From NCBI GenBank assembly GCA_017620375.1, contig JAFZQN010000119.1, positions 1 to 39,579 of the forward strand: 39,579 nucleotides of DNA, written 5' to 3'. The notes beneath the pieces are model-generated. The model did not search any database. It saw nothing but the letters and a program-made list of their open reading frames with translations, and was not told the origin of the DNA. A program made the translations under genes and the position numbers. This document shows, piece after piece, positions 2,738 to 38,693 of the stretch. Origin of the DNA: Lachnospiraceae bacterium (GTDB lineage: Bacteria; Bacillota; Clostridia; Lachnospirales; Lachnospiraceae). Each line of letters begins with the position of its first letter. Positions within the stretch are counted from its first letter, which is position 1.

Positions 2738-5107
2738 TTAGCTTATACCTTTAGCTGCCTTAAGTGTAATACCGTTTTTACCGAGCGGGATCTCATGGTC
2801 AAGTCCTACGAACTTGCCACCTTCCTGCCAGAGGACTTCTTTTACGAAGTTATACTTTTCAGTATCCCATGTGGTAAAGTCATCCAGCAGCAATCCGCCG
2901 GTATCACCGGAGTTTGCGTTCAGACACCAGAAAGTATGGTTCAGATGATACTTCTTTATGAGCTGTCTCATATAAGTCATCCAGGTAAGATTCGGTTCTC
3001 TCATGAATCCGCCCCACTCACCGATAAGCAGCGGTGCGATATTCTTTTCGTAGATAAAGAACCAGTTATCATGCCAGCAGTCCTTCATAAGAGAATCATA
3101 AGTATACTTTCCCTCAAACCAAGGCTGCTCGTATACGGTAGGACCGTAATCATGAGGTGAATAAACCAGCTTATTCTGGTACTTTCCAAGGTTGATCGGA
3201 TAATCCGCAACACCTCTTAAGTTTCCGCCCCACCAGTTGAAGTAATAATCTTTGTCGTTTGTAGAACTATAATCCGAATTCTTCTTTATGTCAATAGGGT
3301 AAATCTCAATTCCTTCTACCATTATAAGAACATTCGGGTTTTTAGCAAGTATCTTGGCAGCAGCGGTCTCAGCCACATACTTCCAGTTGTTTGCTTTCTT
3401 CGAATCATTCCAGATGGCGGCTCCGTCACCCTCGTAAGGCTTTCCGTGAGGCTCGTTCTTTAAGTCAAATGCGATAATGGTATCGTTATCCTTGTAACGT
3501 TCTGCCATCCATTCAAGTGCATGATAGAAATCATTAACCTTGACCTTATCGGTATACCAGAGGTTAACATTATGTCCGGATGCATTGGTCTCTGCCGAAT
3601 GTATATCGGGCATTACCTTAATACCGTTTTGCTCGGCCAGAGCCAGGAAATAATCAAATATCTCCAGACTGTTCATGCTGTTGAGCTCGGTATTGTATGC
3701 ATTATTATAATTTGCCTTCGGATACTCACCTGCAGCCCACTGATTGATCAGCTGTGCCGAGATCGGTACTCTTATCAGGTTAAATCCATGATCGGCTATA
3801 GCCTTTACAGTAGGAGCAAGCTGACTGTTCCAGAGTCCGTCAAATGTATTGGTACCTGTATTGTATCCAAACCAGTTAAGACCTGTGAGCCATACCTTCT
3901 TACCGTCCTTATCAAGGATATTCTTGCCGTCGGTATGTAGCCAGTCATCACCCTTCTTACCGGTTGTATTCTCTTTTATTTCTTTTATAAGATCCTGTCC
4001 CTTCTTATCGGAACCGCCACCGTTACCGCCATTACCACCATTGCCACCGTTACCGCCATTGCCTCCGTTTCCGCCGTCATTCTTTAAGCCGGGGTCATTC
4101 TGGTCAACCTTGCCGCTCTTTACGGTCATGGGCTTTCCGTTAAGCTTTGCCGATGAGATTGTAACCTTACTTGAAGTAGTGCCCAGGTTACATCCGATCA
4201 CTATGGTTCCGTTGGCATATATATCACTGTTGTATCCGGCATCGGTAACAGTCATGGTGTTTCCGCTTGTTTTAAACGTACCGTTCCAACCGCTGACAGT
4301 ACTTAAACCGTCTATTACCATCTCAAGCTTCCAGCCCTTTACAGCAGTATCGGTACCGTTGGTGATACCAAACTGAACACCGAACATATTGGTAGAACCG
4401 TCCTGCCACGAGTTGTCGGTAGTATATGTAAGTACATACTCTCCCTTGCCACCGTTATCTGTAGATGTAGGGGTAGGTGTTGCCTTTTCTGTAGGAGTAG
4501 GAGTAGTCTTATCCACGTTATCGGGTGTAGGACTGGGAGTAGTATCATCTCCCGCTTTCTCTGTAGGTGTAGGTGTGGTATCATCTCCTGCATCGGGTGT
4601 AGGAGTTACCTTGCTATCGTCAGGAGTCGGTGTCACCTTATCATCTGCCTTAGGTGTAGGCGTTATCTTATCCCCTGTGTCAGGAGTGGGCGTAGCCTTA
4701 CCGTTATCAGGTGTGGGAGTGGCTTTGTCATCGGGTGTAGGGGTAGTGTTATCTGCCACTTCCTGTGTAGGTGTTATATCATCCCCCGTATCAGGAGTAG
4801 GAGTTGTATTATCATCTCCGCCCGGAGTTTCGGTCACATCATTTCCGGTATCTCCGGTATTTGATGTATTGTCACCTGCCTGTGAAGTAGGTGTTGTCTC
4901 TTCACCGGTCTTTGTACCGGAGTTATCACCGGTATTGACAGTTGTCTCACTTCCTGTAACACTTTGACCGGCATCTACGGTTTTATTCTTGTCGTCTTTT
5001 GAACTTCCAAGGAGTACACCGATCAAGATACCTGCTGCAAGTATACATACTGCCGCTATAGCAAAGATTATCAGTTTTTTCTTAGAACCGTTGTTTTCTC
5101 CTGCCAT
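2738..5107 (-). CDS. Membrane-anchored GH5 endoglucanase with CBM2-type module
   Basis: Predicted beta-1,4-glucanase displayed on the cell surface. Domains in order (789 aa): short basic N-terminus, one membrane segment at residues 11-33 without an obvious cleavage site, a Thr/Pro/Asp linker at 34-218 with TPTPD repeats, a CBM2-like cellulose-binding module at about 221-332 (W234, W259 and W274 are candidate surface tryptophans), an (N)GG repeat linker at 344-365, then a GH5 barrel at about 387-765. Catalytic residues are visible: acid/base E552 in DLKNEPHG and nucleophile E697 in LIGEWGG. The start of the barrel (VWLTGLNWFGYNTGT) resembles the Acidothermus E1 type (GH5 subfamily 1); the subfamily is my guess. 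RBS AAAGGCGG precedes the ATG. MATE lies 75 bases upstream and pncB 14 bases downstream. Confidence 0.92.
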   Translation of the reverse strand: MAGENNGSKKKLIIFAIAAVCILAAGILIGVLLGSSKDDKNKTVDAGQSVTGSETTVNTGDNSGTKTGEETTPTSQAGDNTSNTGDTGNDVTETPGGDDNTTPTPDTGDDITPTQEVADNTTPTPDDKATPTPDNGKATPTPDTGDKITPTPKADDKVTPTPDDSKVTPTPDAGDDTTPTPTEKAGDDTTPSPTPDNVDKTTPTPTEKATPTPTSTDNGGKGEYVLTYTTDNSWQDGSTNMFGVQFGITNGTDTAVKGWKLEMVIDGLSTVSGWNGTFKTSGNTMTVTDAGYNSDIYANGTIVIGCNLGTTSSKVTISSAKLNGKPMTVKSGKVDQNDPGLKNDGGNGGNGGNGGNGGNGGNGGGSDKKGQDLIKEIKENTTGKKGDDWLHTDGKNILDKDGKKVWLTGLNWFGYNTGTNTFDGLWNSQLAPTVKAIADHGFNLIRVPISAQLINQWAAGEYPKANYNNAYNTELNSMNSLEIFDYFLALAEQNGIKVMPDIHSAETNASGHNVNLWYTDKVKVNDFYHALEWMAERYKDNDTIIAFDLKNEPHGKPYEGDGAAIWNDSKKANNWKYVAETAAAKILAKNPNVLIMVEGIEIYPIDIKKNSDYSSTNDKDYYFNWWGGNLRGVADYPINLGKYQNKLVYSPHDYGPTVYEQPWFEGKYTYDSLMKDCWHDNWFFIYEKNIAPLLIGEWGGFMREPNLTWMTYMRQLIKKYHLNHTFWCLNANSGDTGGLLLDDFTTWDTEKYNFVKEVLWQEGGKFVGLDHEIPLGKNGITLKAAKGIS
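4013..4078 (-). repeat. Gly-Gly-Asn coding repeat (linker)
   Basis: Seven tandem GGN units (residues 344-365 of the GH5 protein) encoded by a 9-base DNA repeat with third-base variation. It is a flexible spacer between the carbohydrate-binding module and the catalytic barrel. Confidence 0.85.
4466..4810 (-). repeat. TPTPD-type coding repeat (wall-spanning linker)
   Basis: Residues 100-214 of the GH5 protein are built from degenerate repeats of TPTPD/TPTE followed by three to six variable, mostly acidic residues. Given the membrane anchor, the roughly 185-residue linker is long enough in principle to cross the Gram-positive wall. A similar Thr/Pro/Glu stalk occurs in the lipoprotein at 20624-22486. 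Confidence 0.8.
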
Positions 5108-30160: not shown

Positions 30161-30183
30161 CCGGGCCGCGTTATGCGGTCCGG
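30161..30183. terminator. GC-rich hairpin shared by convergent genes
   Basis: CCGGGCCGC / GCGGTCCGG arms with a 5-base loop. The stop codon of the minus-strand ABC gene (30171-30173) lies in the loop. T-runs on either side are weak (TAATATTTT on the plus strand), so termination efficiency is uncertain. Confidence 0.6.
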
Positions 30184-32009
30184 TAATATTTTGCCTGTGC
30201 ATTCCAAAGCTGCGCATACTTTCCGTCTTCATCCTTTACAAGACTGTCATGCGTACCCTTCTGTACTATCTCTCCGTTATCAAACACAGTGATCTCATCG
30301 CAGAACCTGCATGATGATAACCTGTGGCTTATATATATGGCGGTTTTATCCTCCGTTATATTATTAAAGTTGCTGTATATCTCTTCCTCTGCTATAGGAT
30401 CGAGTGCGGCTGTGGGCTCATCAAGCACTATAACAGGTGAATCCTTGTACAGGGCTCTGGCCAGAGCAATTTTTTGTGCCTCTCCGCCCGATATCTGTAC
30501 CCCCTTTTCAGACACATCCTTATACAGATATGTATCAAAACCGTTCGGTAAGCTTGTAAATCTCTCAGAAAGAGTGGTTTTTTTAATGCATTCCTCTGCT
30601 TTTTCGATATCCACCTTAGTATCGGCTGCTATATTCTGTCCCAAAGGAAATGCCAGAAGCTTAAAATCCTGAAATACGAATGAAAATACCTTCAGGTACT
30701 CATTATAATCGTACTCCCTGATATCCTTCCCGTTAAGAAGTATCTGTCCTTCCGTCGGATCGTAAAGCCTGCACAACAGCTTAACAAAAGTGGTCTTACC
30801 CGCTCCGTTCGCACCTACAAATGCCTGTTTTCTTCCGATATTAAGCTTGGTATTTATGTTCTTTAATACATAGGTGTCACTGTTGGGGTACTTGAATGAC
30901 ACATTCTTATACTCTATCTCACAGCCGTCCGTAAATATCTTTTCATCTATATGTACATTTCCTGTACTCTTCCTGTGAGGAAGGTCAAGGTACTCATACA
31001 GATGCTCCAGATGCCCGGTATATATCTTGTTCTCCGAGATAACATCCGACAGCTCACCGAAGCTTTCAACCATCTTTATCAAGGCTCCGACATACTGGAC
31101 TATACTGCCTACCGCAAAAGCTCCGAGTCCCGCCTTGGCTACCACCATCAGATAACATAAGCACGTACATATACCTCTGAACAGGACCAGCCTGCTCTGG
31201 CATGAACTCATACTTCTTAGATACACATTGTCCTTCTCATTGTTATCCTGCAGCTTCTGCATCTCCCTCAAGGCAAATCTGTCCTGACGATATATCCTTA
31301 CATCCTTTGCCCTCGCAGGTTCAGCATACAGTTCGTGTCCGTAGAACATAAATGCCCTGTTAAACCATACATTGCTGTCGGTCCACTTTTCAAAGATCTC
31401 CTGTTCCTTTGCTTTAAGCTTCGAGGTAATGAATCCCGAAAGAATAACCACTATAAGAAGCACACCTATCCATACCGGTGAATCCACCAATGCATTACCG
31501 GACTTCGATGTAAAAAACGATACCGTAAGAGCTATAGAAGCTGCTATACCTATAAATACTTCCACCAGACCGGAAGTATCCCATACCAGCTGTCCAAGTC
31601 CGTTTCCGAACATAAAGAGGTTTTCTTCTGCCTTCTGCTTCTGTTTTCTTATATCAGGATCTTCCAGATCGACAAAGTCCATCTCCATCTGCTTATCGGA
31701 AAACACCTTGGAGAAATAATTCCACATTCCGGACTCTTTATCGTTTACCTTTTTCTCCATGGAATTTTTGATCATCGAAAGGATAAAGTTGATGCCTATG
31801 GTGAGAAGCACATATAATATCAGTCTGTCCACATTCCTGTCATTAGTTATCTCGTTTATGATCCTTGCGGAAAACCATATGGTCACAAAGGGAGCGATGG
31901 TCTTAGCTATGCTATGAAGTACTTTCGCCCTGATCAGTCCCGGACAGTATTTTGCCAGTATCCTGTATCCGCGTTTTGTATTCTCTATACGCTTCTTAAA
32001 TCTCATCAC
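30171..32009 (-). CDS. ABC exporter half-transporter, pair 2 second subunit
   Basis: 612 residues: six-helix exporter membrane domain (about 15-340) and ATPase (about 355-610) with Walker A GANGAGKTT, signature ISGGEAQKIALARAL, Walker B VIVLDEPTAALDP (catalytic Glu intact) and H-loop ISHRLSSCRFCD. Overlaps the end of the upstream ABC gene by 14 bases, so they are translated together and probably form a heterodimer. Its closest relative in the window is the gene at 34098-35918: both have the SHRLSSCRFC ending, the EYDYxxY segment and the FxxVFQDF Q-loop. Both are the second member of their pair. Likely exports a drug or peptide; substrate not visible. No peptidase domain. Confidence 0.9.
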   Translation of the reverse strand: MMRFKKRIENTKRGYRILAKYCPGLIRAKVLHSIAKTIAPFVTIWFSARIINEITNDRNVDRLILYVLLTIGINFILSMIKNSMEKKVNDKESGMWNYFSKVFSDKQMEMDFVDLEDPDIRKQKQKAEENLFMFGNGLGQLVWDTSGLVEVFIGIAASIALTVSFFTSKSGNALVDSPVWIGVLLIVVILSGFITSKLKAKEQEIFEKWTDSNVWFNRAFMFYGHELYAEPARAKDVRIYRQDRFALREMQKLQDNNEKDNVYLRSMSSCQSRLVLFRGICTCLCYLMVVAKAGLGAFAVGSIVQYVGALIKMVESFGELSDVISENKIYTGHLEHLYEYLDLPHRKSTGNVHIDEKIFTDGCEIEYKNVSFKYPNSDTYVLKNINTKLNIGRKQAFVGANGAGKTTFVKLLCRLYDPTEGQILLNGKDIREYDYNEYLKVFSFVFQDFKLLAFPLGQNIAADTKVDIEKAEECIKKTTLSERFTSLPNGFDTYLYKDVSEKGVQISGGEAQKIALARALYKDSPVIVLDEPTAALDPIAEEEIYSNFNNITEDKTAIYISHRLSSCRFCDEITVFDNGEIVQKGTHDSLVKDEDGKYAQLWNAQAKYYRTA

Positions 32010-33822
32010 CGCTCACCTCCCCTTCTTCATTATCCCTGTAATACTTGGCCTGAGTCTCATAAAGCTCATAATATCTGCCTTTACTTTTAAGCAGCTCGTC
32101 ATGGGTACCTTCTTCTATGATCCTTCCGGCTTCTATCAGGATTATACGGGTACAGAATCTGGTAGATGCCAGACGGTGTGAAATGAATATGGTAGATTTT
32201 CCCTTCATCATTTCATCATAGGTCTCATAAAGATGATTCTCAGACACCGGATCAAGTGCCGCCGTCGGCTCGTCGAGCACCACTACAGGTGACTGTCTGT
32301 ACAAAGCTCTTGCAAGAAGAAGTTTTTGTATCTCTCCGCCCGAGAAGTTTACACCGTCATCCCAGAAAGTCTTATCGAACTTACTCTTGATCCCTTCGGG
32401 AAGTGATGTGATCTTTTCCGATAATCCCGCAGTTTTTAAGCACTGCCGTACTCTCTCTTCGTCTATATCATCCGGCTGTTCCGATACTATCTCGGCTATG
32501 GTCACGGGCAGGAGTGAGTGATCCTGGAGAACGGCACCGAAAAGCTCATAATACTTATCACGGTTATATTCTCTTATATCTATGCCGTCATATAATACCG
32601 TACCCTCTGTAGGTTCGGTAAGCCCCATAAGCAGTTTTACCATAGTCGTCTTACCGGCTCCGTTAAGACCTACCACTGCCAGATGCTCACCCGGTTCTAT
32701 CGCAAGGTTGAAGTCCTTTATTATATTTTCTCCGTCCTCGGAATACTTGAAGCACACTTTTTTCAGTTCTATCCTGCCGGGTTTCTCTGTATCCTTAATC
32801 TCCGCTCCGCCTTCTCTTTTATACTCTTCCGGGTACTCAAGGTAGGATCTGAAACGGTTCATCGCTATACTCAGCCTGTTGAGGTTATTAATCTGTCCGA
32901 GCAGACTTCCGAGCCATGTCGAAAATCCTGCCACCACGTTAAAGTAGAGCACGAACTCAGCTACCGTGATATTCCCCTTAAAAACAAGGTACAACAGGTA
33001 AGCGTATACAGCGCCTTCTCTTATAAAAGACATTCCGCTGTCCACTGCGGACACTCCAAACAGCTTTGCGGTATATCTTCTGTACCAGCCCTTAAAGCCG
33101 GACATGTACTTTTCATAAAGCTTGTCAAGCCATACCGGCATATTGTAGAGACGTATATCCTTTGCCGCCTGCACATCGTTTGAAACGCCTATTATATACT
33201 GCATACCGTGCTCATAACCGTTCTTCTCATCCATATTGGTATCAACCCATTTTAATACCTTACGGTTAAGAAGGAAACTGACCGTGGTGGTAGCTACCAG
33301 AAACAATATGATCCAGATATTGACCGTAAACAGTATACCTGCAAAAGCTATGAATCCGAGCATGTTTGAAAAGAACATTACAACAGCATCATAGGTCTGC
33401 AGGAAATATGAAAAATTACCGTTGCAGCTGGCAAAGCTCTCGCTCTGCAACTCTCTAAAATGCTCATCTTCCTGATTCTTATAATCGGTCGTAAGGCCCT
33501 TCTTTGATATCTTTCTTAAGAAGTGCACATTCATCTTGAACTTATTCCAATATATCATGCGTTCAAGATATTTCTGTACGGTCTGGAACAAAGCAAGTGC
33601 CAAGGCCAGACCTCCGGTGATAAACAGTAACCTCTTTAAACCTGACTCTATAGTTATCTCCTCTATTATCACCTTCGGTAAAAATGCTGTGATGACGGGT
33701 ACCGCGCAGTTGACAAGTATGATGCCGGCACAAAATATGAGGAGCTTGGGACAGCCTTTTTCGGTCTCCTTTAAGCAGTAGGACAGGTTTTGTAAAATTG
33801 TATATTTCTTATCCTTATCCAT
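31996..33822 (-). CDS. ABC exporter half-transporter, pair 2 first subunit
   Basis: 608 residues from the ATG at 33822 (MDKDKKYTILQ), which has AAAGGA 8 bases upstream; a longer frame would start inside the terminator hairpin and has no RBS. Membrane domain about 25-325 and ATPase about 340-600 with Walker A GLNGAGKTT, signature FSGGEIQKLLLARAL, Walker B VVVLDEPTAALDP and H-loop ISHRLASTRFC. Most similar to the gene at 35921-37777 (SHRLASTRFC type). Preceded by the leader-peptide attenuator at 33841-34086, so transcription into this gene is predicted to need antitermination. Confidence 0.9.
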   Translation of the reverse strand: MDKDKKYTILQNLSYCLKETEKGCPKLLIFCAGIILVNCAVPVITAFLPKVIIEEITIESGLKRLLFITGGLALALALFQTVQKYLERMIYWNKFKMNVHFLRKISKKGLTTDYKNQEDEHFRELQSESFASCNGNFSYFLQTYDAVVMFFSNMLGFIAFAGILFTVNIWIILFLVATTTVSFLLNRKVLKWVDTNMDEKNGYEHGMQYIIGVSNDVQAAKDIRLYNMPVWLDKLYEKYMSGFKGWYRRYTAKLFGVSAVDSGMSFIREGAVYAYLLYLVFKGNITVAEFVLYFNVVAGFSTWLGSLLGQINNLNRLSIAMNRFRSYLEYPEEYKREGGAEIKDTEKPGRIELKKVCFKYSEDGENIIKDFNLAIEPGEHLAVVGLNGAGKTTMVKLLMGLTEPTEGTVLYDGIDIREYNRDKYYELFGAVLQDHSLLPVTIAEIVSEQPDDIDEERVRQCLKTAGLSEKITSLPEGIKSKFDKTFWDDGVNFSGGEIQKLLLARALYRQSPVVVLDEPTAALDPVSENHLYETYDEMMKGKSTIFISHRLASTRFCTRIILIEAGRIIEEGTHDELLKSKGRYYELYETQAKYYRDNEEGEVSGDEI

Positions 33823-33840
33823 TTTTTTCCTTTCATTACC

Positions 33841-33884
33841 AAATAAAAAATCTGTTTTGTATCCAAATGTACACAAAACAGATT
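33841..33884 (-). terminator. Intrinsic terminator of the ABC leader (attenuator)
   Basis: Perfect 12-base arms (33873-33884 and 33849-33860; AATCTGTTTTGT on the minus strand), 12-base loop, then TTTTTTATTT. It ends 18 bases before the ABC start. Its 5' arm, extended by GCG, is complementary to the 3' arm of the leader hairpin. Confidence 0.92.
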
Positions 33885-34013
33885 CGCAAAAAAGCCCTAT
33901 AAAAAATATAAGGAAATACTGTCTGCGAATATTGTTTTAGTGTACACCAAAAGAAACCTGTCTATTAACAGGCTCTTTTGTATTCATCCTAAAACAAATT
34001 ATCTGATTCGCAG
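33874..34013 (-). ncRNA. Leader RNA with mutually exclusive antiterminator/terminator folds
   Basis: Minus-strand RNA. Fold 1: CTGCGAAT (34006-34013) pairs with ATTCGCAG (33923-33930), TTGTTTTAG (33989-33997) with CTAAAACAA (33932-33940), AAAAG (33975-33979) with CTTTT (33949-33953), CCTGT (33968-33972) with ACAGG (33957-33961), making one long nested hairpin. The terminator can then form. Fold 2: the 3' arm CTAAAACAATATTCGCAG (33923-33940) pairs with TGCGAATCTGTTTT (33875-33888), 6 plus 7 base pairs around a small bulge, and removes the terminator's 5' arm. The 5' arm of fold 1 lies inside the codons of the leader peptide, so a stalled ribosome would favour fold 2. Confidence 0.8.
33937..33987 (-). 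CDS. Possible second leader frame (16 codons)
   Basis: ATG to TAA frame inside the leader hairpin, beginning MNTKEPVNRQ. AGG directly abuts the ATG, so the RBS spacing is poor, and the sequence is constrained by base pairing. It may be chance. If translated it would itself disturb the hairpin. Confidence 0.2.
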   Translation of the reverse strand: MNTKEPVNRQVSFGVH

Positions 34014-34022
34014 TACCAGCAT
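33999..34022 (-). CDS. Leader peptide MLVLRIR (predicted ribosome-arrest peptide)
   Basis: Seven codons, ATG CTG GTA CTG CGA ATC AGA, then TAA. Two anti-SD matches precede it: AGGTG 5 bases and AAAGGA 12 bases before the ATG. Codons 4-6 form the 5' arm of the leader hairpin. The ending Arg-Ile-Arg fits the +X+ motif at which macrolide-bound ribosomes are known to arrest, and MLV resembles the start of the ErmB leader (MLVFQMR...). With Ile in the P site the ribosome would cover bases down to about 33991, masking both 5' arm segments. Translation and drug response are inferred. Confidence 0.7.
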   Translation of the reverse strand: MLVLRIR

Positions 34023-34057
34023 TTCCACACCTATTCCTTTACAAATTTTACATTTTT

Positions 34058-34086
34058 ATCCTATCATGGCTGTATGTTTTTGTCAA
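34058..34086 (-). promoter_or_regulatory. Promoter of the attenuator and ABC pair 2
   Basis: Minus strand TTGACA, 17-base spacer, TAGGAT with a TGA extended -10. It lies 11 bases after the stop of the upstream ABC gene. Predicted RNA start near 34051 gives about 30 bases before the leader ATG. Confidence 0.8.
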
Positions 34087-34097
34087 TTACTATTTTA

Positions 34098-35918
34098 TTA
34101 CCTGTAATACTGGGCCTGAGCCTCAAACATCTTGGCATAAATGCCGCCCACTATCTTTATAAGGGCATCATGGTTGCCGTATTCGGCTATCCTGCCGTCC
34201 GAGAATACCGCTATATTATCACAGAACCTGCAGCTTGAAAGCCTGTGTGAAATATAAAAAGCTGTCTTATCGCCGACAAGTGTATGGAACTGGCGATAAA
34301 TCTCGTACTCGGCAATGGGATCCAGTGCCGCTGTAGGCTCATCTAATATCACTACGGGTGACTCTTTGTACAGAGCTCTTGCTATAGCTATCTTTTGCTG
34401 CTCGCCGCCCGAAGGCTCGATACCGCTCTCATCAAAATACTTGAACATAATGGTTTTTTTTCCTTTTTCGAGCTTATCCATCATTTCCTTAAGATTTACA
34501 AGCTCGATTATCTTATCCGCTTTCAGGCTGTCTTCTTCACTATACTGTTCATCTTCCCCATCCGTAAGCATGATGTTTTCTTCTATAGGGAATGCGAAGA
34601 GCCTGAAATCCTGGAATACCGGTGCAAAAAGCGTCATATACTGCTGATAGTCGTATTCCTTGATATTGACTCCGTTTACAAGGATCTCTCCTGATGTGGG
34701 ATCGTACAGTCTGCAGAGAAGTTTTATAAACGTTGTCTTTCCCGCACCGTTAAGGCCTACTATCGACAGATGCTCATGGGCATTGATCTTTATACTGATA
34801 TTATCAAGGATAAGCTTATCGGTACCCGGATACTTAAAGGATACGTTCTTAAACTCTATCTCACGGATCTCCTTATCCACAGGTTTTTCACCCTTTTCCA
34901 AGGCTTCCGGATACTCCATGAAAAGGACAAATTCATATGCATAATTGCAGCGCTTAAGTATTTCCTGGCTGTTATATACCAATCCGCCCAAGGTGTTGTT
35001 TAACCCATCGGCTGCTTCTATCATCTGTACAAGTACGCCTATTGAGATTGCTCCTTTTATCGCAAGAAAACCGGCGTACAGGTATGATACCATCATCCTT
35101 ATGATATTGGCAGCATTACCGATAAGATTATATTTCATGCTTGTCTCGGCCTGCCACTTCCAATGAGCGTTACTTGCATCGGAGTTCCTATCCCAGCAGT
35201 CAACCATCATTTTCCTTGCATCATACAGTCTTATGTCTTTACCGTATCTGAAATCTACTATGTTCCATCCATAATACCCGAAAAGTCGGTTTATCTTTGC
35301 AAGCTTCTTATATACTTCCAAACCGATCTTGTTATTTTTTGCTGAAACAAATCCCATAATGATCACATATGCAAGTATAATCAGTAAAAGCAGCGGTGCA
35401 TTAAGACTTATAATGGTAACGAGTCCGAAAACACGCAGCAGGTTGGATATTCCACCGAATAACTGCTCAGCAATACCATACGCCCCGCCTGAGTACCAAT
35501 CCATACCTGTCCTGGCCTTTTCCACCTGATCCAGTGCTTCCTTGTCTTCAGTCAGCTGAAAGTCAAGTTCCATGGAATGAAGACCGGTAAGTACACTGAA
35601 ATGGTTGTCAAGCCTCTGCTGGTATTTCATCAGTTGGTTATTGATCCTTTCTAAGGTAACAGAAAGGATAAACTCTCCTCCTATCAGAACCGCTGCCAGG
35701 ATAACCAGTGTTTTTACTTCTCTATCGGTGATCAGTTCGTCTATGATCATAGGCGAAACTATAACCGGCAGCAGGGCCGACACTGCAGTAATGATCGTCT
35801 TTAAGGTTTCAAGCGGAAAGAACAGCGGAAACTTTTTTGCCGTCACTGAAAATAACAGCTTGATAACCGGAAAAACTTTATCTTTTGAAGATAATTCTTT
35901 TTTATCTTTTTTCGACAT
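34098..35918 (-). CDS. ABC exporter half-transporter, pair 1 second subunit
   Basis: 606 residues. Membrane domain about 20-330, ATPase about 345-600: Walker A GLNGAGKTT, signature PSGGEQQKIAIARAL, Walker B VVILDEPTAALDP, H-loop ISHRLSSCRFCD. The signature starts with Pro rather than Leu (PSGGE), which may weaken one ATP site. It begins 2 bases after the stop of the previous ABC gene with AAGGAG inside that gene's 3' end, so translation is coupled. Paralogous to the gene at 30171-32009. No terminator of its own before the next promoter; readthrough would meet the attenuator. Confidence 0.9.
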   Translation of the reverse strand: MSKKDKKELSSKDKVFPVIKLLFSVTAKKFPLFFPLETLKTIITAVSALLPVIVSPMIIDELITDREVKTLVILAAVLIGGEFILSVTLERINNQLMKYQQRLDNHFSVLTGLHSMELDFQLTEDKEALDQVEKARTGMDWYSGGAYGIAEQLFGGISNLLRVFGLVTIISLNAPLLLLIILAYVIIMGFVSAKNNKIGLEVYKKLAKINRLFGYYGWNIVDFRYGKDIRLYDARKMMVDCWDRNSDASNAHWKWQAETSMKYNLIGNAANIIRMMVSYLYAGFLAIKGAISIGVLVQMIEAADGLNNTLGGLVYNSQEILKRCNYAYEFVLFMEYPEALEKGEKPVDKEIREIEFKNVSFKYPGTDKLILDNISIKINAHEHLSIVGLNGAGKTTFIKLLCRLYDPTSGEILVNGVNIKEYDYQQYMTLFAPVFQDFRLFAFPIEENIMLTDGEDEQYSEEDSLKADKIIELVNLKEMMDKLEKGKKTIMFKYFDESGIEPSGGEQQKIAIARALYKESPVVILDEPTAALDPIAEYEIYRQFHTLVGDKTAFYISHRLSSCRFCDNIAVFSDGRIAEYGNHDALIKIVGGIYAKMFEAQAQYYR

Positions 35919-35920
35919 TT

Positions 35921-37777
35921 TTAAGCTCCTTTTTGAGGTGTCTCATCCTCATTGTAATACTTCGCCTGGATATTGAACATATTGGCGTATTCCCCGTTCT
36001 TAGACATAAGTTCATCAAATGAACCGTATTCGATCATCTCGCCGTCCTTGAACATCGCTATATTGTCACAGAATCTTGTAGAAGCCAGTCTGTGAGAGAT
36101 ATATACCGCCGACTTCTTTCCGATCATACGGTCAAAGCGTTCATACAGCTGCTGTTCTGCTATAGCATCAAGGGCCGAGGTAGGCTCATCAAGCACCACG
36201 ACATCGGCGTCCTTATACAGAGCCCTTGCCAGTGCAAGCTTCTGCTTCTCACCGCCTGACAGATCTATTCCGTCATCTTCCACTATATTGGTAATGTAAG
36301 TATCGATACCTTTTTTAAGGCCTTCAATCTTTTCTTTAAGTCCGGCCTCATCAAGTGCCTTTACGACTCTGTCCTTATCGGTATCAGCGCCTGTTTTCAT
36401 GGAAACATTTTCTGCTATGGGGAATGCAAAGGTCTCCACATCCTGGAATACAGGTGCAAAAAGCTTGTAATACTCCTCACGGTCATATTTCTTTATATCC
36501 ACACCGTTTAATGTGATCACACCCTCTGTAGGATCGTAAAGACGAAGGAGCAGCTTGATCATAGTCGTCTTACCGGCACCGTTAAGTCCTACCACTGCCA
36601 GTCTTTCGCCTGCATTTATCTTAAGATTCAAGTGCCTTAACGCATACTTTTCAGCCTTAAGATATTTGTAACTTACATCTTTAAACTCGATTACATAAGC
36701 ATCTGCCTTGGGAAGCGGGATCGTATCTTCTTTTTTGATTATATCCAGCTCCATAAATGTTCTCAGATCATCAACTCTTAACGAACATTTCTTATAATCG
36801 CCGAATCTCAAAAGTAAAAAGGGAAGGCTCTGTGAAAATGCGGTGGATAATGCAAGGAACATCGTAAAGTTTCCTATGGTAAGATCCTTCTTTATAACCG
36901 CATAAAAGAGTACCGCATATACCAGTCCTTTGGTGATCATGGTAATTAATGACGCAAAATAAGCATGTCCGGACCACATATTGTAATGTTTGTCCATTTT
37001 TTCTTCTTTTTCACTGAATATCTTTTTCTGCTTTTTTACCAGATACTTGCCAAGTCCAAATAAACGGATATCTTTGGCGTATTCAAAATCCTGTGTAACT
37101 CTTGACATATAGCCGATCTTACGCCATATCGGAGAGAGCTGGTCCCAGACTTCCTCTTTGTCTTTTTTTACTATCCTTCTGTAATACAAAAACTGGATGA
37201 TAGCTAAAAACACCAGACAGATTATAAGTCTATAGTCAAGTACCGTAACAGCTACAAAGGTTACTATGACTGTGAGCAGGTTTTGTCCCAATTCGGGTAT
37301 GATATGCAGCATACCTTCAAAGCCGTTTTGATTATCATTACACGACTCCAGTGCACGTTCATGCATATCCAGTACGTCCGGCCTTTCAAGTATCTCGTAG
37401 TTAAGACTCAGCACACGGCTTACTCTTTCACTGATCACGCGCATACGGATATCGATGTATTTATACCATGTAAGCGAACCCGATACCGTATTGCTTAATA
37501 TAAGAACAGTGGTTATACTTCCCGCTACCAGCAAAAACACAATAAGGTTGTGTCTTTTTACGTCATCATCAACCACGTTTTCTATTATATCAAGTACGTA
37601 CTTTCCAAATACTCCCCAAAAATACTGGAGCATGGATGAAGCTACCATACCTACGGCCGCCAGTCCCAGTGCTGACGGACAGTATTTCTTTGCTTTCCCA
37701 AGTACGTATTTAGTATTGCTCCATAAACCAAATTCTTTATGGAGCGGATTATCTTTGCTTTCTTTATACTCTGCCAT
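35921..37777 (-). CDS. ABC exporter half-transporter, pair 1 first subunit
   Basis: 618 residues. Membrane domain about 30-335, ATPase from about 360: Walker A GLNGAGKTT (397-405), signature LSGGEKQKLALARAL, Walker B VVVLDEPTSALDA, H-loop ISHRLASTRFC. Its ATG lies inside the end of the XRE regulator gene (14-base overlap), so regulator and exporter are translated from one message. Paralogous to the gene at 31996-33822. With the next gene it should form a heterodimeric exporter. Unlike classical heterodimers such as TM287/288 or BmrCD, neither subunit has lost the Walker B glutamate. Confidence 0.9.
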   Translation of the reverse strand: MAEYKESKDNPLHKEFGLWSNTKYVLGKAKKYCPSALGLAAVGMVASSMLQYFWGVFGKYVLDIIENVVDDDVKRHNLIVFLLVAGSITTVLILSNTVSGSLTWYKYIDIRMRVISERVSRVLSLNYEILERPDVLDMHERALESCNDNQNGFEGMLHIIPELGQNLLTVIVTFVAVTVLDYRLIICLVFLAIIQFLYYRRIVKKDKEEVWDQLSPIWRKIGYMSRVTQDFEYAKDIRLFGLGKYLVKKQKKIFSEKEEKMDKHYNMWSGHAYFASLITMITKGLVYAVLFYAVIKKDLTIGNFTMFLALSTAFSQSLPFLLLRFGDYKKCSLRVDDLRTFMELDIIKKEDTIPLPKADAYVIEFKDVSYKYLKAEKYALRHLNLKINAGERLAVVGLNGAGKTTMIKLLLRLYDPTEGVITLNGVDIKKYDREEYYKLFAPVFQDVETFAFPIAENVSMKTGADTDKDRVVKALDEAGLKEKIEGLKKGIDTYITNIVEDDGIDLSGGEKQKLALARALYKDADVVVLDEPTSALDAIAEQQLYERFDRMIGKKSAVYISHRLASTRFCDNIAMFKDGEMIEYGSFDELMSKNGEYANMFNIQAKYYNEDETPQKGA

Positions 37778-38693
37778 TTCTAACCTCTTTTATCATCTTA
37801 ATTACTTTCTCACGGTCAAACCAGGCTTTATCCCTGTTTCCTACCTGCATCGTATAACCGTACGGAGGATTTATAAGGCTGTCCATACTTAACAGCAACA
37901 CTATAAAAGGAACTATACCGCTTGGTTCTATAGAATATGCCGTCTCTGTGTCATCACTCTTTACAACATTAACACACTGTATTACCCTGCCGCCTTTATC
38001 TCCTGCTGTCAACTTATCCATTATATTCTGTATTTTGTCGACATCCATTCCTATGATCTCCGATAAAGTTGAAACAGATACCGCTTCAAACGTTTTTAAA
38101 CTCATAAGGAAGAATAATATCTCAAGAACTCCGGGTTCTCCGAGTCCTCTGAAAAAGCTTCTTAAGTTTTCCGACAGTTTCAGGTGGCTTGAAAAACCGT
38201 CCTCAGGTTCCTTTACAAGAGCATAGTACTGCTTTTCCAGATTAAGGTTGAAATATCCAAAACCTGCATTGTCCGATATAACCGAAGCAGTACGTACCCC
38301 TTCTTCGGGAACAACTTTTTTGTAATAATACTTGTTATTCTTCCAGCAGGCTATCTGACCCGTCCAGGCGATATCAAGCAGTTTTTCAAAGTATTCTTCA
38401 TGTGAGCTTGCGCTTTTTTCATTCTCTTTCTCATGGAGCGAATACAATTCATCCAGTACCATCTGCTCGAAGCTCTTCTTCTCCGTCTCCTGACCGTACA
38501 GATAAGATATCGAAACCTCAAAGTATTCCGATATCTTAGGGAGAAGGTCACCTTCCGGGTAGCTTCCGTTCTCCCACTTGGATACCGCCTGGGGGCTGAC
38601 TCCTAAAAACGAAGCCAGCTGTTCCTGTGTTACCCCCTTTTGTTTTCTTAATGCCTGAAGATTTGAAGCAAATACTGTAGTTTCTTTAGCCAT
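37764..38693 (-). CDS. XRE-family regulator of the ABC exporter operon
   Basis: 309 residues. N-terminal Cro/C1-type helix-turn-helix (about 8-62; LRKQKGVTQEQLASFLGVSP, QAVSKWENGSYPE). The remaining about 240 residues are not a standard XRE partner: a central part with aromatic residues (about 95-160), a helical winged-helix-like stretch (about 190-245, LFFLMSLKTFEAVSVSTLSE) and a C-terminal segment with one hydrophobic patch (IVPFIVLLLSMDSL). The C-terminal part may sense a ligand or the exporter substrate. GGAGG RBS. Cotranscribed with ABC pair 1 (14-base overlap). A CACAA-N7-TTGTG dyad next to its -10 suggests autoregulation. Confidence 0.87.
   Translation of the reverse strand: MAKETTVFASNLQALRKQKGVTQEQLASFLGVSPQAVSKWENGSYPEGDLLPKISEYFEVSISYLYGQETEKKSFEQMVLDELYSLHEKENEKSASSHEEYFEKLLDIAWTGQIACWKNNKYYYKKVVPEEGVRTASVISDNAGFGYFNLNLEKQYYALVKEPEDGFSSHLKLSENLRSFFRGLGEPGVLEILFFLMSLKTFEAVSVSTLSEIIGMDVDKIQNIMDKLTAGDKGGRVIQCVNVVKSDDTETAYSIEPSGIVPFIVLLLSMDSLINPPYGYTMQVGNRDKAWFDREKVIKMIKEVRNGRV

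Follow-up and report, generated by a model that had tools for sequence, protein, structure and literature searches.

A putative ribosome-mediated transcription attenuator upstream of an ABC exporter pair in a Lachnospiraceae bacterium, with related leaders before ABC-F genes

The leader located between 34086 and 33841 on the minus strand of the window (the whole 39,579-nucleotide stretch of Lachnospiraceae DNA that was analysed) is very probably a ribosome-mediated transcription attenuator of the ABC exporter pair that follows it. The RNA switch appears to read the stalling of a ribosome, for which an antibiotic is the most likely cause, and to activate the exporter pair in response. Attenuation by a drug-stalled ribosome is considered the best explanation because the layout resembles that of the vmlR leader, the encoded peptide ends like that of tlrB, and the computed optimum for a stalled ribosome lies at codons 5 to 7. 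Macrolide-type drugs are the most likely trigger, with a chance judged slightly better than even. Related leaders, located before ribosome-protection genes in many relatives, suggest a shared, re-usable drug sensor.

The leader and the exporter genes

The promoter (34058-34086, minus strand) consists of a TTGACA box at 34086-34081, a 17-nt spacer and a TAGGAT box at 34063-34058 that is preceded by TG. Since the second half of an upstream exporter pair (pair A) terminates at 34098 and the -35 box begins at 34086, this promoter is located between two transporter pairs. An AGGTG sequence at 34028-34032 is probably the ribosome-binding site of the upstream open reading frame (uORF) at 33999-34022, ATGCTGGTACTGCGAATCAGATAA, which encodes MLVLRIR in seven codons with an R-X-R motif abutting the stop. 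The uORF is overlapped by segment 1 (34006-34026), the 5' arm of the anti-antiterminator, whose partner is 33912-33930; segment 1b (33989-33997) has its partner at 33932-33940. Enclosed by these arms is an inner hairpin (33948-33980) which, judging from the vmlR and tlrB leaders, is probably an RNA polymerase pause hairpin, and immediately past its core a TTCTTT sequence (33950-33955) fits the NusG pause motif TTNTTT. Segment 2 and its 5' block (33922-33947) form a shared arm, with the uORF region as partner in the off state and 33867-33890 as partner in the on state. The latter stretch is segment 3, comprising the 5' arm and loop of the terminator, which is captured by segment 2 within the antiterminator. 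The intrinsic terminator (33841-33885), like all of these elements on the minus strand, has a 15-bp stem (33885-33848) followed by a U tract, and its end at 33841 is separated from the exporter ATG at 33822 by 18 nt. The promoter, seven-codon frame, nested hairpin and terminator 18 bases before the exporter had been proposed in the initial annotation of this DNA, and each was found at the coordinates given there. The minimum free energy of the leader fold was −73.2 kcal/mol, compared with a mean of −41.2 kcal/mol (sd 4.0) for 200 shuffled sequences (z −8.08), none of which folded as low. No hairpin hiding the Shine-Dalgarno (SD) sequence was found before the exporter, the computed fold having merely a weak A-U hairpin there.

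The two exporter genes, also on the minus strand, encode half-transporters of 608 aa (B1, 31996-33822) and 612 aa (B2, 30171-32009, overlapping B1). The Pfam ATPase domain was found in both, NCBIfam exporter models spanned most of B1 with none of those listed attaining its cut-off, and the B1 sequence was similar to exporters of the P-glycoprotein, Sav1866 and MsbA type. A protein scan with B1 across 84,980 species, with one genome per species, returned 21 loci, of which 20 were kept as exporter homologues; the remaining one (L035) was dropped, as only its ATPase domain matched, at 24%. A B2 homologue was located 3' of B1 in all 20 homologous loci (in two frames in L032, and cut by the contig end in L027), and the seven closest loci were from genomes named 'Lachnospiraceae bacterium' (six) or 'uncultured Lachnospiraceae bacterium' (one). 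No exporter relatives were detected in viral contigs.

The same leader was present at the same place in seven of the 20 homologues (L015, L016, L017, L018, L020, L021 and L022; B1 76-89% identical), two of which (L020 and L021) are copies within one MAG. Sheep rumen and goat omasum were named as sources for two of these seven loci, and an intrinsic terminator upstream of the exporter was read in all of them. For L019 (77%), no terminator was found in the 163 nt of upstream sequence on the contig. In the other 12 homologues (L023-L034, 62-69%), a model built from the eight exporter leaders alone (R1) gave no match above 15.2 bits.

Three minor observations concern these loci. A second ABC exporter pair (A1 and A2, 34098-38693), overlapping an XRE-type regulator gene, is present upstream of the leader in the window; pair A also adjoins the leader locus in L015, and none of the flanks fetched for the remaining loci with the leader showed it, those of L018 and L020 being short. 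In L016, additional sequence was noted between segment 2 and the terminator, with the switching arms retained by eye. L025 has a similar terminator arm and loop directly upstream of the exporter, about 100 nt before position 5001 of that locus; neither R1 nor R2 (described below) detected a uORF leader upstream, and this terminator is possibly a decayed attenuator.

The uORF was conserved. In all eight exporter leaders it reads M[LP]V[LM]RIR-stop, with variation in residue at positions 2 (L/P) and 4 (L/M). Codon usage varied at Arg5 (CGA/CGC/CGT), Ile6 (ATC/ATA/ATT), Arg7 (AGA/CGA) and the stop (TAA/TGA), and because all of the changes within R-I-R are synonymous, R-I-R-stop is taken to be conserved as a peptide. 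The uORF and the helix share bases, so that conservation of the peptide and of the base pairs is not fully separable. The promoter, TTGACA-17-TAxxAT, was found in 8/8 exporter leaders with 10-11 of 12 consensus matches, a level of 10 being reached by 4% of shuffled upstream regions.

Related leaders before ABC-F and other genes

At a threshold of E 0.01 or better, R1 matched 8 of 397 Lachnospiraceae genomes, namely the genome of the window and seven others. In six of these seven the match was located directly 5' of an ABC-F gene, with a four-codon uORF and a terminator, and the seventh (L040) was spurious; about four chance matches were expected at this threshold across the 397 genomes. New R1 matches in 392 order-level genomes comprised a leader before an ABC-F gene (L045), one before an MFS transporter gene (L046, with uORF MSSVVFA; best model TIGR00900, 135 bits against a cut-off of 319.6) and one spurious place.

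A second model (R2) was built from 15 leaders (14 ABC-F and one MFS) with the exporter leaders excluded. It recovered the window leader at E 4.1e-5 and scored the eight exporter leaders at 16 to 33 bits. Among 329 Lachnospiraceae genomes, 49 were matched at E 0.01 or better in 54 rows, and 50 of these rows were inspected (30 in returned loci and 20 fetched), the omitted rows being that of the window, two antisense matches and one other. The inspected places were followed by ABC-F genes (43), GNAT acetyltransferases (2), DJ-1/PfpI genes (2) or a gene of unclear type (1), and two were false; among the ABC-F genes, one frame (L095) was interrupted and one (L118) was judged on its first 26 matched residues. 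Two main kinds of ABC-F were seen behind R2 leaders, Vga/VmlR-like and Lsa-like. R2 matched 11 of 245 class-level genomes; six of the 11 were outside the family, and among these L110 (uORF MRR, Lsa-like) alone appears genuine. Behind leaders of this family are genes for ABC exporters, for ABC-F proteins of three kinds, for an MFS transporter, and for acetyltransferases and DJ-1/PfpI proteins. We know of no role of DJ-1/PfpI, found downstream of family leaders in L119 and L128, as a drug-resistance gene family.

Six ABC-F frames, some of them cut by the locus end, were scored with NCBIfam: against the ribosomal protection ABC-F model, which has a cut-off of 380, five reached 200-355 bits and L109 reached 434. 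The ABC-F of L104, from the genus of the window, scored 529 bits with the Lsa model, whose cut-off is 750. The naming as ABC-F is therefore by similarity, as most of the NCBIfam scores fall below the cut-off. For the ABC-F of L027, the best matches among solved structures were two ABC-F chains named ExpZ, 8buu and 6ha8. We take 6ha8 to be VmlR, and 8buu is the entry of the VmlR2 paper.

Model matches without a uORF or inside coding sequence (L040, L047, L112-L116, L129 and L131) were rejected, and antisense R1 and R2 matches on the same hairpins, attributed to hairpin symmetry, were not counted. At the DNA level, a search of 299 Lachnospiraceae genomes gave short partial matches in five, and a search of the window's own genome found no second copy of the leader and short matches only. 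No match was found in phages, and plasmids gave one chance match, in a cyanobacterial plasmid.

The pause motif was also shared among the relatives. A TTNTTT sequence past the inner hairpin was present at ATG+62 to +67 in 8/8 exporter leaders and at the corresponding place in 12/16 ABC-F/MFS leaders, giving 20/24 leaders compared with 1.9 expected from mononucleotide shuffles. The consensus promoter was mostly absent from the ABC-F/MFS leaders, of which 3/16 reached 10 of 12 matches, two of these being near duplicates. GGTG of the candidate ribosome-binding site was (nearly) invariant across the ABC-F leaders in alignment A2. The uORF endings of related leaders include R-I-R, N-R, I-R and R-R before the stop, and several ABC-F relatives encode MINR. 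R-I-R-stop was found in 11/11 leaders with an exporter pair downstream (eight directly and three via the clusters described below, many being close relatives) and in only 1/49 related leaders (L122).

A bridge between the two groups of leaders was provided by the distant exporter homologues. In five of the 12 (L027, L030, L031, L033 and L034), an ABC-F gene sharing 65-67% identity with the L039 ABC-F was located up to about 1.2 kb upstream of the exporter on the same strand, and in four of these five (not L027) a GNAT acetyltransferase gene was located between the ABC-F gene and the exporter pair. R2 detected a leader 171-282 nt before the cluster ABC-F gene in L030, L033 and L034, with 52-59 bits; R1 gave no match for these three. 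Each of these leaders has the uORF ATGCGTATYAGATAA, which encodes MRIR-stop, and beyond it the arms and terminator recur. The ABC-F, GNAT and exporter pair on one strand form a putative resistance cluster, which would be transcribed as one operon.

These data are consistent with a re-usable ribosome-sensor cassette in Lachnospiraceae, in which the switch is kept and the uORF is exchanged, so that one sensor would have been retuned to drugs of different classes and come to stand before varied genes; we lean towards this reading, with moderate confidence. The pattern is typically M-x-x-R-stop before ABC-F genes and R-I-R-stop wherever an exporter pair is downstream. The cassette reading is strengthened by the detection, with R2, of leaders before ABC-F genes in three distant exporter homologues, and the clusters headed by MRIR may show how the leader reached the exporter pair.

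Competing helices and computed switching

In the computed fold, the leader hairpin is formed by 34013-34006 with 33923-33930 (8 bp) and by 33997-33989 with 33932-33940 (9 bp), exactly reproducing the pairing that had been described from the sequence. The antiterminator contains the six pairs 33938-33933/33875-33880 and the seven pairs 33930-33924/33882-33888 that had also been noted; that description was incomplete, as it missed two pairs at the inner ends and an outer block of eight pairs (33947-33940/33867-33874). In total, 23 pairs join 33947-33922 with 33890-33867. The antiterminator duplex of the window leader had an energy of −23.8 kcal/mol, reached by 2/5000 shuffles of segment 2, and the anti-antiterminator duplex −18.6 kcal/mol, reached by 14/5000. 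A UGUACA repeat shared by the hairpin and the terminator loop was considered as a kissing contact and rejected, since the order of the elements shows nesting, and the repeat extends the antiterminator.

The eight exporter leaders were aligned, and RNAalifold recovered the uORF helices, the middle helix (82.5% paired) and the inner hairpin. For the anti-antiterminator, 95.3% of cells were paired, compared with a maximum of 53.4% when the arms were slid. Thirteen double-change cells were counted compared with 5.5 in shuffles (0/500), and the covariation score was 0.202 compared with 0.155 (1/500). Two of the five measures were within the shuffle range, namely pairs changed on both sides (103/500) and further pair types (486/500). 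In alignment A2, of 15 ABC-F/MFS leaders, 86.7% of cells were paired, with 17 double-change cells compared with 5.2 in shuffles (0/500). An uncompensated loss of the paired arms in relatives had been named as an outcome that would speak against attenuation; the opposite was found, the arms being kept with compensatory changes in the seven relatives.

Alignments A3 and A4 misplace the terminator loop, and pairs on them were left uncounted; an alignment-free swap test was therefore performed with RNAduplex on 21 of the 24 leaders (7 exporter and 14 ABC-F/MFS) with 20,000 permutations, in which the relatedness of the leaders remains. L077, without a clear terminator, and the near duplicates L021 and L050 were omitted. 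Cognate arms paired more strongly than swapped arms in both the antiterminator (mean −20.9 kcal/mol compared with −16.95, sd 0.68; 0/20,000) and the anti-antiterminator (−19.6 compared with −13.8 kcal/mol, sd 0.77; 0/20,000). For the seven exporter leaders only, the values were 231/20,000 and 13/20,000, respectively, and the outer block alone (10857/20,000) and segment 2 alone (1855/20,000) were non-significant. For the 14 ABC-F/MFS leaders, 0/20,000 permutations reached the cognate antiterminator and 1/20,000 the anti-antiterminator, with 18 for the outer block and 14 for segment 2 alone. Duplex and partition-function computations both showed that the antiterminator excludes the anti-antiterminator and the terminator alike, and the idea of one arm with two competing partners was thereby borne out.

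Partition functions were calculated with the last 10 nt hidden in the polymerase, and describe equilibrium and not kinetic folding. Without a ribosome, pairing of the anti-antiterminator was 0.96 and of the antiterminator 0.00 with the polymerase at either 33845 or 33840, and terminator pairing rose from 0.43 to 0.84 between these positions. When a ribosome with Ile6 in the P site was represented by a 32-nt footprint over 34022-33991, the mask put forward in the initial annotation, the fold flipped from terminator to antiterminator: anti-antiterminator pairing was 0, antiterminator pairing was 0.96 at 33845 and 0.88 at 33840, and terminator pairing was 0.00 and 0.08, respectively. Arg7 in the P site resembled Ile6 (antiterminator 0.87, terminator 0.08), and Arg5, with the polymerase at 33840, gave 0.62 and 0.42. 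With Met1 or Leu4 in the P site, antiterminator pairing was 0.96 or 0.91 at 33845, and at 33840 it was 0.32 with terminator pairing of 0.80. In a scan of P-site positions, from which L077, L021, L050 and L046 were omitted, mean antiterminator pairing of the seven exporter leaders peaked at codons 5-7 (0.49-0.55, with 0.26-0.28 at codon 1), and that of 13 ABC-F leaders peaked around codons 4-6. Of 23 leaders (all except L077) folded with the uORF masked, 17 gained more than 0.1 in antiterminator pairing and 14 lost more than 0.1 in terminator pairing; six of the 23 (L051, L053, L061, L066, L068 and L046) failed to switch in this equilibrium calculation. A control mask placed between the arms raised antiterminator pairing by more than 0.1 in 2/23 leaders, the window leader (from 0.04 to 0.17) and L020.

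These calculations bear on the nature of the trigger. The same switch might respond not to a macrolide stall at R-I-R but to an early block of translation by a pleuromutilin, a lincosamide or a streptogramin A, a reading which is plausible and which we regard as the less probable one. The related leaders before ABC-F genes have mostly uORFs of two to four codons, VmlR and CplR confer resistance to those drugs according to PMC9226507 and PMC10201436, and a mask for an initiating ribosome also raises antiterminator pairing. However, with the polymerase at 33840 the Met1 mask is weaker (terminator 0.80, antiterminator 0.32) than the Ile6 mask (0.08 and 0.88), and R-I-R-stop is kept in 8/8 exporter leaders and in the three cluster leaders.

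Proposed mechanism and comparison with known attenuators

For attenuation by a drug-stalled ribosome, the following series of events can be proposed. The strong promoter would give rise to the leader transcript, and RNA polymerase would probably pause at the TTNTTT past the inner hairpin, allowing the ribosome time to begin the uORF. In the absence of drug, the ribosome would complete the uORF and leave, the uORF region would pair with segment 2, the terminator would form and the exporter pair would be off. A drug-bound ribosome would stall near the end of the uORF, on its final codons (Ile6 at the P site and Arg7 at the A site being most likely), and would cover the uORF arm, so that segment 2 would be free. 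The freed segment could then capture the terminator's 5' arm and loop by forming a helix of over 20 bp with them, and the polymerase would read through into the exporter pair. We infer the pausing, the stalling and the response to macrolides or other large-subunit drugs. That a paused ribosome would free the 3' arm and destroy the terminator had been suggested from the sequence alone, and this is supported by the masked folds, the covariation and the ABC-F relatives.

A different signal might be read by the same arginine codons, namely arginine supply or the general speed of translation. Arg-stop closes 41 of 49 distinct related uORFs (37 AGA and 4 CGA; the hand-read uORFs among the 49 are MIQR of L093, which is the same leader as L070, MLSR of L120 and MRK of L136), and the exporter uORF has two Arg codons. 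An amino-acid attenuator of this kind is nevertheless very unlikely, as many relatives have a single Arg codon and the downstream genes encode exporters, ABC-F, MFS, GNAT and DJ-1/PfpI proteins and no arginine functions. Even less credible is a small-molecule riboswitch, with a ligand bound by the nested hairpin and no translation of the short frame: the leader is highly structured and its inner hairpin is conserved, but the uORF is retained in all eight exporter leaders despite synonymous changes and a change of stop from TAA to TGA, one half of the switch consists of the uORF arm, and there is no Rfam match. An ordinary terminator between two transporter operons, with alternative pairings as by-products of repeats, would suit the end of exporter pair A at 34098, some 210 bases before the terminator stem, and the likeness of the terminator 5' arm to the leader arm, by which the shared pairing of segment 2 could stem from duplication; it is equally improbable in view of the consensus promoter before the uORF in 8/8 exporter leaders, the swap tests and the recurrence of the leader before unrelated genes.

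The reading as a ribosome-mediated attenuator can be set beside known systems, as these are described in the cited papers. The vmlR leader of Bacillus subtilis contains a NusG TTNTTT pause motif, a pause hairpin, a uORF in the anti-antiterminator, an antiterminator and a terminator (PMC9226507). The window leader shares with it the short uORF within the anti-antiterminator, the pause hairpin and TTNTTT (at the level of sequence only here), the antiterminator and the intrinsic terminator. The two RNAs are likened by layout; the vmlR uORF has three codons, the target is an ABC-F gene and there is an SD-sequestering hairpin (PMC9226507), for which no counterpart was seen in the window leader. The vmlR uORF, MIN, compares with MINR in several ABC-F relatives of the window leader (PMC9226507). 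The tlrB (yxjB) leader peptide of B. subtilis is MIIQFIRYR, and ribosomes stalled on it by tylosin hold the Y of RYR in the P site and the final Arg in the A site (PMC6851288). That system likewise combines transcription attenuation and NusG-dependent pausing with a peptide ending in R-X-R before the stop, as in the R-I-R-stop of the window uORF. It differs in that an rRNA methyltransferase is regulated and the stalled ribosome itself blocks completion of the terminator hairpin (PMC6851288), whereas a separate antiterminator helix is predicted to do so in the window.

The leader of cplR in Clostridioides difficile is a clostridial case of premature termination that depends on a uORF, with retapamulin and lincomycin as inducers; its uORF is MR[I/M], an ABC-F gene is controlled, and the SD of that gene is additionally masked by the terminator hairpin (PMC10201436). 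In the Listeria rli80-hflXr leader, premature termination is controlled by a short ORF with an R-X-R macrolide motif, RLR, which has been called a hallmark of macrolide-sensing attenuators, but the ORF has 14 codons and the target is a ribosome-splitting factor (PMC6310831). The bmrB-bmrCD system of B. subtilis, named as the analogue in the initial annotation, also has a leader ORF and an intrinsic terminator before an ABC exporter pair, with antibiotic-dependent read-through into bmrCD; however, bmrB spans 162 nt and encloses the terminator (PMC4191407), whereas the seven-codon uORF of the window stops 113 nt short of the terminator stem. The vmlR, tlrB and cplR leaders are therefore the closer analogues. 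According to a genome survey, attenuators can hop from one gene to another, and among the gene families covered there the ABC transporters had the most attenuation candidates (PMC2965389).

Attenuation of the vmlR/tlrB kind is thus known, and the window leader is a variant of that kind for which no description was found in the literature searched. Neither this leader nor such a Lachnospiraceae family was described in the parts of the literature that were available, where most entries were judged by title and the opening of the abstract; many subscription papers are outside this coverage, so absence is unproven. In Rfam 15 no family matched at the gathering score, and a relaxed threshold yielded only matches far below it. 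The earlier remark that no described example was known thus holds with respect to Rfam, but the leader is not unique, as its family is present in many relatives. To our knowledge, there is little work on RNA-level inducible resistance in anaerobic gut and rumen bacteria. If the proposed reading is right, this recurring attenuator family flags unannotated genes that answer to ribosome drugs, the uORF endings (R-I-R, N-R, I-R and R-R) are a natural series for how the peptide sets drug specificity, and an uncharacterised ABC exporter pair is linked to ribosome-acting drugs.

Variation within and beside the family was also observed. A leader sub-type whose uORF is MRR, MKR or MIR and whose conserved 3' arm ends in CATAACCTCTCT was seen in L123, L124, L127, L130, L132 and L133, followed by an Lsa-like ABC-F gene five times and by an acetyltransferase gene once. 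In L076 and L122 the inner hairpin contains inserted sequence, with the switching arms retained by eye, and on contig C68 of genome G227 (L050 and L081) the ABC-F gene behind an intact-looking leader has one in-frame TGA. A different leader type was noted by eye before the same ABC-F family in L058 (contig C73 of the window's own genome), L059, L060, L062 and L031. It has a longer uORF after GGAGG, a CCTCC that could pair with the SD, and a terminator close to CCCTGATACC...GGTATCGGGG; its uORF contains K-I-R in L031 and begins MIIIIRK in L058.
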